Shown here: one piece after another, positions 11,472 to 12,460 of the stretch
Numbering within the stretch: position 1 is the first letter of the stretch
Layout of the letters: every line of letters starts with the position of its first letter
Source of the DNA: an uncultured Prevotellaceae bacterium
Lineage (GTDB): Bacteria; Bacteroidota; Bacteroidia; Bacteroidales; Bacteroidaceae
Reading direction: 5' to 3'
DNA length: 64,000 bases
NCBI GenBank assembly: GCA_946186505.1
Contig: CAMHNI010000008.1
Span: 48,333 to 112,332, forward strand
Notes under the pieces: generated by a model
What the model was told of the DNA's origin: nothing
Database searches by the model: none
What the model saw: the letters and a program-made list of their open reading frames with translations, nothing else
Made by a program: the position numbers and the translations under genes

Positions 11472-11531
11472 ATGAATATGAACAAGAAATCTATCATTAC
11501 CGCATTGCTCGCCCTCGGATTAAATTACTGA
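11472..11531 (+). pseudogene. Truncated signal-peptide leader M(N)KKSIITALLALG, cut by a TA cassette
   Basis: ATGAACAAGAAATCTATCATTACCGCATTGCTCGCCCTCGGATTAAATTACTGA; same leader as 12461, 20875 and 26209. Confidence 0.6.
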
Positions 11532-11613
11532 AATGAAACACCAGACACGATATCGCCAAAACGAAATATCCCTCTCGCCGGTGAGGGGGAAAGGGATGGT
11601 GTATAGGGGTGGA

Positions 11614-12213
11614 TTAAGGGATTATCGTATGAACCCAACTGGGCAATTCTTTAACGTATTGTTTGAACACCTTACCGTCAACCATGCGGAAGAGCAGACG
11701 CGCTTCTTGGTCATCAACAGAGTTGTCATAAATATAAGTTCGGTCTACAAGTCTGCTTACTCGCTTACAATTAAGGATGGACTTATAGTAGCGGGAAATA
11801 ACTTTGGTGATTGGTACGTCGTGACCACCTTTCATCACCCGTCTGGCAATACGAGAAGCATTGATGGAAGGATGATTGGTGGCTACGAAGAAGAATCGAA
11901 TAAAGAATCCCGCCTCATGGGCACGACGGATGTAGTCAATCTTATCATCAGCAGAAAGAACGGTTTCAAAGATCAGGCTTTTCTTCTCGAGCAGACACTC
12001 CTCACGCAATGCCTCGCAATAATTCACCGATTGCATGATAGCCTCTTGAGAGTTCCAGTCACCAAACTTATCGTTGGCAATTTGGTCTGGGTTGATATAT
12101 ATGGCATTCTCCATCCACTCATGATGCAATATTTGAGTGGTTATGGTTGTCTTGCCCGAACCATTTGGTCCGGCGATGACAATAAGAACGGGCTTGTGAA
12201 CAGTGGCTACCAT
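11614..12213 (-). CDS. Zeta-toxin-like P-loop kinase
   Basis: VLIVIAGPNGSGKTTITTQIL (Walker A), AIYINPDQIANDKF, LIFETVLS. Confidence 0.85.
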   Translation of the reverse strand: MVATVHKPVLIVIAGPNGSGKTTITTQILHHEWMENAIYINPDQIANDKFGDWNSQEAIMQSVNYCEALREECLLEKKSLIFETVLSADDKIDYIRRAHEAGFFIRFFFVATNHPSINASRIARRVMKGGHDVPITKVISRYYKSILNCKRVSRLVDRTYIYDNSVDDQEARLLFRMVDGKVFKQYVKELPSWVHTIIP

Positions 12214-12383
12214 GTGGCTGAAATCTTCTGCGCATCCTCTCGCATCTGTTCAAAGAAGCGGGTGGTAGCCTCTTCATTTGTACGTTTAGCCTCCTCGGCA
12301 GCCTCCTTCATCAACTGTGAAAGCACAGCATCCGAAGGCTCCTCCATACTTGTCAACCGATATGTGTCAATTGTAGGATTCAT
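12207..12383 (-). CDS. Candidate antitoxin for the zeta-like toxin
   Basis: Short acidic ORF overlapping the toxin start; shares its upstream region with two YoeB antitoxin operons. Confidence 0.6.
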   Translation of the reverse strand: MNPTIDTYRLTSMEEPSDAVLSQLMKEAAEEAKRTNEEATTRFFEQMREDAQKISATW

Positions 12384-12460
12384 AATCGTAATCTTTTTGT
12401 TCTCGGGGGCAAAATTACGAAAATAATCCGAAATAATCATTCTAAACAGGAAATATTTTT

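Follow-up and report, generated by a model that had tools for sequence, protein, structure and literature searches.

In Prevotella chromosomes, small toxin-antitoxin (TA) operons of unrelated types were found to lie between the same short non-coding ends. As judged from sequence comparison across genomes, these operons share their ends, are exchanged for unrelated cargo, leave empty slots and have been transferred horizontally. The slot can be likened to a socket into which small toxin modules are plugged. Its cargo families are ordinary, with matches by Pfam/NCBIfam to the type II TA families YoeB, Zeta, RelE/ParE, VapC/PIN and YafQ; what is unusual is the non-coding ends that they have in common. 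No description of such an arrangement was found in a literature search of partial coverage.

Three TA operons with common ends

The window, which is the whole 64-kb stretch of DNA analysed here, contains a zeta operon and two YoeB operons (YoeB1 and YoeB2), all on the minus strand as initially annotated and as borne out by their coordinates. In each operon a leader forms the 5′ end and terminates in the antitoxin start codon, and a 73-nt hairpin forms the 3′ end, about 10–30 nt from the toxin stop. A 24-nt leader up to the antitoxin start codon and the −7 promoter sequence are common to the three. The hairpin copies (11530–11602, 20171–20243 and 21706–21778) showed 96–99% identity to the query over 73 nt, and the leader copies (12380–12413, 20796–20829 and 22330–22363) 97–100% identity over 34 nt. 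The initial annotation had called these ends identical. Both ends are indeed shared by all three operons, and the copies are near-identical rather than identical: the zeta copy has CACCAGACACGATATC in place of the annotated CACCTGACACCATATC, and the YoeB2 copy carries the variants CATCTG and ATATTGCC. The hairpin matches are not due to chance (E = 8e-31 to 4e-28 per genome), and a reversed-pattern control for the leader gave zero matches. In pattern searches of the 3.93-Mb host assembly, the leader (≤3 mismatches) and the hairpin were located only at these three operons, within about 11 kb.

The zeta operon ends in a hairpin (11530–11602) with the stem AUCCCU..AGGGAU on the TA-sense strand and a T-rich tail. 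It encodes a zeta-type toxin of the AAA/kinase fold (11614–12213; Pfam Zeta_toxin, E = 8e-12) and, directly after the leader, a 58-aa antitoxin beginning MNPTIDTYRLTSMEEPSD... (12207–12383). The P-loop GxxGSGK(T/S) is present as GPNGSGKTT, which together with the 58-aa ORF upstream places the operon among Zeta-type TA modules. The antitoxin is conserved together with its toxin in other genomes and had no Pfam family over cut-off and no NCBIfam match. The shared leader GAGAACAAAAAGATTACGATTATGA with the start of the −7 region occupies 12380–12413, and the upstream block U1 with the promoter (−7 sequence TAATTTTG) occupies 12406–12460.

In YoeB1, in order of increasing coordinates, the hairpin (20171–20243) is followed by the toxin (20276–20548; Pfam YoeB_toxin, E = 2e-17), an antitoxin assigned by position (20548–20799), for which no Pfam family was found, and the leader (20796–20829). 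YoeB2 has the same layout, with the hairpin at 21706–21778, the toxin at 21811–22086 (Pfam YoeB_toxin, E = 1e-16), an antitoxin assigned by position at 22076–22333 and the leader at 22330–22363. Its upstream blocks U3/U2 lie at 22357–22485, where U2 is TTCATGTTATTTTATGCGAATT. Both are predicted type II TA modules with a YoeB_toxin domain and an upstream antitoxin in one operon.

Cargo, empty slots and upstream blocks in other genomes

As the initial annotation had proposed, the flanks were searched in other genomes and the cargo between them was catalogued. The search covered 399 congeneric genomes. Most named loci come from Prevotella metagenome assemblies, some lie at contig ends, and the host genome is 93% complete. 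The leader was found in 15 of the 399 genomes and the hairpin in 38. With 0–1 mismatch, the leader occurred only before TA operons, and these belonged to four toxin classes (zeta, YoeB, RelE/ParE-like and VapC). Flanks that elsewhere accompany YoeB alone, which the annotation had named as the adverse outcome, were thus not what was seen; the pattern proved more general than noted, and empty slots were found. The RelE/ParE-like pair (MTQILVTLNEDATT... / MKVEIVLGDEFKRQFKRLAKK...) is a weak assignment, its toxin matching Pfam RelE at E = 1.5e-4, under the curated cut-off. Before the hairpin stood the same four operon types and also PIN-domain, KilA-N and Kinase-PolyVal genes. For 15 of the 18 leader copies, a hairpin followed on the same strand; of the three copies without it, one was at a contig end and two belonged to zeta operons. 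One module per slot is the rule, and two successive hairpins occurred in L037 and L055, with signal-peptide stubs between the units and both units in the same orientation.

The zeta, YoeB, PIN, KilA-N and kinase cargo are mutually unrelated. For other pairs the term is looser: YoeB toxins are distantly related to RelE/ParE toxins, and the antitoxins of YoeB and VapC have similar starts (MTAIEL...). In other genomes, zeta homologues with 64–84% protein identity lack both the leader and the hairpin, so these ends did not come with the zeta family. Outside the genus, the hairpin was present in 0 of about 390 other genomes of the order; viral contigs gave no exact match to the leader or the hairpin, and the zeta cassette had no blastn match among phages and plasmids. 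A conserved antisense ORF in 17 loci was rejected as a candidate gene, being merely the reverse strand of the hairpin and toxin genes.

The upstream side consists of several blocks, namely U1 (...GTTCATAAAAATATTTCTTGTTTAGAATGATTATT...), U2, U3 and a variant carrying a 76-nt insert, and each of these blocks, at least four in all, was combined with several cargo types. Elsewhere U1 stands upstream of zeta, VapC, ParE, KilA-N and kinase cassettes. U2 is single-copy in the host genome and, in other genomes, borders empty slots on the left. The Bacteroidetes promoter pattern is TTTG-N19-TAxxTTTG, and the module promoter, read directly, fits it. A second leader family, AGAATCATTTAATTGTTATG, is common to KilA-N and Kinase-PolyVal modules. 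The position of the 5′ junction varies among the −7 box, the leader and the start codon; the YoeB module of L133 is 97.8% identical to YoeB1 of the window from start codon to hairpin, yet it has a different leader. Of the fixed promoter and the fixed terminal hairpin that had been proposed initially, the 3′ hairpin has held as a fixed end, and the 5′ promoter/leader end has held in part; it is not one single promoter, having at least four upstream blocks, a second leader family and two or three nearby junction points. The 76-nt insert (GAAGGCAGCGAGTACGGGCTACGCCTCGGC...CCTTGCCCCC) separates the −7 box from the leader in L014, L015, L103, L111, L115 and L127, which differ in cargo, and looks like a small mobile repeat.

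Pairs of loci with the same flanks and different cargo were found. VapC of L103 and ParE of L113 have the same left and the same right flank. KilA-N of L135 and YoeB of L137 have 679 bp of left flank and 133 bp of right flank in common, the latter reaching the contig end; these two loci are assigned to one assembly, in which a mixture of strains or species is possible. Occupied and empty slots were matched likewise: a common left flank was found for ParE L131 and empty L114 over 331 bp (96%) and for ParE L106 and empty L107 over 618 bp (88%). When the slot is empty, its left block (...TTATGCGAATTCTTTGATTATTC) joins the foot of the hairpin (CACCCCCATACACCATCCC) directly and the promoter is lost, with almost the same junction in the seven loci with empty slots. 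A short repeat (TGATTATTC / TGATTACTTC / TTATTCC) stands at both cassette ends, and one copy of it is present in the empty slot. Antitoxin-only remnants, in which the toxin is deleted and the leader and/or the hairpin largely kept, were seen in L055, L111, L134, L136 and L138.

On a left-flank tree built from 21 loci, 10 changes of cargo label are required, against a mean of 10.4 for shuffled labels. Most inner branches of this tree are weak; YoeB2 of the window and the zeta locus L035 form a supported pair (100/99). The label changes and the pairs with the same flank and different cargo indicate that cargo is not inherited with the flank. Between species, cassettes are also far closer than the rpoB region is: the ParE cassettes of G221 and G392 are 95.7% identical versus 83.2% for rpoB, and the KilA-N cassettes of G151 and G205 are 94.2% identical versus 77.8%. 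The right flanks of G392 and G068 are 90.3% identical over 1.65 kb versus 80.4% for the rpoB region. Long right flanks that are closer than rpoB suggest that tracts of a kilobase or more were transferred between species.

The hairpin and the surroundings of the slots

Among 43 distinct hairpin copies, the inner stem is conserved as AUCCCU..AGGGAU on the toxin-sense strand and a T-rich stretch comes afterwards. Eighteen of 20 single C→T or G→A stem changes are on the 5′ arm, with G-U pairing kept only on the toxin-sense strand; these were counted from related copies, so the 18 are not independent events. The changes that keep G-U pairing and the T-rich tail suggest a structure acting in the toxin mRNA, perhaps as its terminator. 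A terminator scan called the hairpin terminator-like on the TA strand with the tail ATATTTCGTT, and shuffled sequences gave about as many sites. A search of Rfam gave no match to a known structured RNA. Breakpoints were located inside the hairpin in L126, L129, L131 and L133; in the pairs compared, homology ended at the hairpin, either on its cargo side (L107/L108; L115/L126) or within it.

The zeta hairpin is directly adjoined on its outer side by the truncated start of a signal-peptide gene (11478–11516, plus strand), and an intact start of such a gene, of the Porph_ging family, neighbours the cassette on the other side (12461–12499, plus strand). The two are identical at 32 of 39 nt and form a 39-nt direct repeat around the zeta cassette. 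At many loci a truncated start of this kind adjoins the hairpin; within the host genome, such stubs are confined to this region. The repeat is missing on one or both sides in many loci, among them the VapE-side U2 loci, L108, L119 and L124. A widely dispersed repeat as the source of the flanks was rejected, since the leader, the hairpin, U2 and the signal-peptide stub are all confined to this region of the host genome.

A YafQ-type TA operon (26394–26877, plus strand; YafQ_toxin, E = 4e-31) has a related leader, GAGAGAACAAAAAATTGAATAGATATG, and a signal-peptide stub ahead of it (26205–26243), and lacks a hairpin copy; it is possibly a looser member of the same set. Adjoining the YoeB2 slot, an AbiLi/AbiLii-like (RloB) pair is followed by a gene of a PADLOC candidate defence family (22950–25957). 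An AAA_14/DUF4143 ATPase at 27981–29441 matches the PADLOC candidate PDC-S01. Two small gene pairs (8547–9228 and 9702–10329) have an HTH partner (HTH_3), the second with a Gp49/HigB-like toxin, and are likely further TA modules. With the AbiL/RloB-like pair, the YafQ operon and the HTH/Gp49 pairs, the surroundings of the slots in the window are a small region rich in defence and TA genes. In other genomes, U2-type and related slots adjoin a gene of 160–210 aa in 13 loci (e.g. L123, L128 and L114), behind which a VapE-like gene stands in 5 loci. Left of the U2 block lies an intergenic stretch that looks structured; in L123 and L128 it gave no match to Rfam. The window further has tandem repeats of 22 nt (36509–36676) and 27 nt (53670–53865).

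Routes of exchange and comparison with known systems

We propose a chromosomal slot whose toxin modules are exchanged by homologous recombination in the shared flanks, the simplest account and one that we consider about evenly balanced between right and wrong. Each module would comprise its own Bacteroidetes-type promoter, a short fixed leader up to the start codon, one or two ORFs and the 73-nt hairpin, which probably terminates or protects the toxin mRNA. DNA from other strains or species would be taken up, and RecA-dependent homologous recombination in the flanks would swap the modules. Because unrelated modules carry common ends, often with longer flanks, homologous recombination can bring about such a swap. 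Deletion between short repeats at the two ends would yield empty slots or antitoxin-only remnants (e.g. L055, L111, L134 and L138). The recombination route, the terminator role of the hairpin and the way in which each module first reached these ends are what we infer from the sequences. Of the modular cassette swapping put forward in the initial annotation, the exchange of unrelated TA operons is retained, and it extends over many species; a specifically mobilised cassette is not required, homologous recombination and decay fitting the data at least as well. The proposed account does not explain the first arrival of some seven cargo types at the same hairpin, which these cargo types abut within about 25 bp, most of them with the same promoter region or leader, and a site-specific enzyme would be a simpler explanation for the near-same junction of the seven empty slots. 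The breakpoints inside the hairpin also speak against the account.

Such an enzyme, encoded elsewhere or acting in trans, would belong to a dedicated integron-like cassette system with the palindrome and the promoter/leader junction as recombination sites. The near-constant junctions are in line with this, as are the short repeat found at each cassette end and once in the empty slot, the same-orientation tandem units of L037 and L055, and the end of homology at or within the hairpin. We nevertheless regard it as rather unlikely. In the 93%-complete host genome the best match to TIGR02249 reached 80.7 bits versus a cut-off of 265, so that no integron integrase passes the family cut-off, in agreement with the initial annotation, and PF01797 gave no Y1 (HUH) transposase match; these were the two recombinase profiles run. 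The motif GTTRRRY or RYYYAAC was present in 0 of the 43 hairpins on either strand, the 5′ junctions vary, and the genes within about 3 kb of the slots showed no conspicuous recombinase-like family in common. A recombination system of a new type, catching toxin modules between the promoter/leader site and the 73-nt palindrome like an integron with a different enzyme, is less probable again. The repeated signal-peptide gene starts might anchor recombination instead, with cassettes looping out and reinserting at any such start and the hairpin and leader only hitchhiking. The 39-nt repeat around the zeta cassette, the stubs beside the hairpin in many loci and between the tandem units of L037 and L055, and the restriction of the stubs to this region of the host genome point this way, but with so many loci lacking the repeat on one or both sides we find it distinctly doubtful.

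A non-autonomous transposable element, its ends being the upstream block and the hairpin and its cargo the toxin operons, seems very unlikely. Multiple sites per genus, several right-flank contexts with a common 3′ end, and the truncated signal-peptide copies adjoining the hairpin would suit it, but no inverted repeat between the two module ends was seen by eye, the left end is inconstant with its at least four blocks, the outer ends have no consistent target-site duplication, and the only three host copies are all in one 11-kb region. Unoccupied sites without both ends were not found. We give hardly any credence to an origin without cassette exchange, either through local gene conversion in the window or through an independently evolved or selected regulatory region. 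The clustering of the three host copies fits the former, and the latter is in keeping with the A-rich leader and its looser matches before unrelated genes. Local gene conversion as the full explanation is contradicted by the cross-genome catalogue, in which 15 (leader) to 38 (hairpin) of 399 genomes carry these flanks beside other cargo and zeta and YoeB stand in the same longer flank in different genomes; for convergence, near-identity over 73 nt and 24 nt between unrelated operons is too great.

TA cassettes occur in chromosomal integrons (PMC8618304, PMC11023631). As in integrons, the modules described here are small, often TA, interchangeable between constant ends and in one orientation, with a palindrome after each. 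They differ in that an integrase over cut-off and attC core motifs were not found and in that one module per slot is the rule, with no array; the promoter of the integron platform stays, whereas here the promoter is lost in the empty slot. Defence and TA hotspots with variable cargo are known at conserved loci, e.g. in P2/P4 phages (PMC9122126). The slots resemble these in that defence-type cargo differs by strain at the same chromosomal place and that exchange via homologous recombination in conserved flanks is plausible. In contrast to the hotspots, a promoter/leader and a hairpin serve as the borders here; they lie only tens of bases away from the ORFs and recur at several unrelated sites. 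REP/BIME and IS200/IS605-type elements are dispersed conserved palindromes of 50–80 nt adjoining genes. The hairpin is likewise a conserved dispersed palindrome beside genes, but it has few copies per genome, is tied to toxin modules, and is accompanied by no Y1 transposase match in the host genome.

TA operons are known to be mobile, but replacement of one by an unrelated operon can seldom be followed base by base. Across one genus, what seems to be the same slot is found here occupied, emptied and re-occupied, with borders placed within tens of bases. The two short sequence tags, leader and hairpin, are usable to find new toxin-like modules, and the slot makes testable both the mechanism of exchange and the question of whether such modules are addiction or defence cargo.
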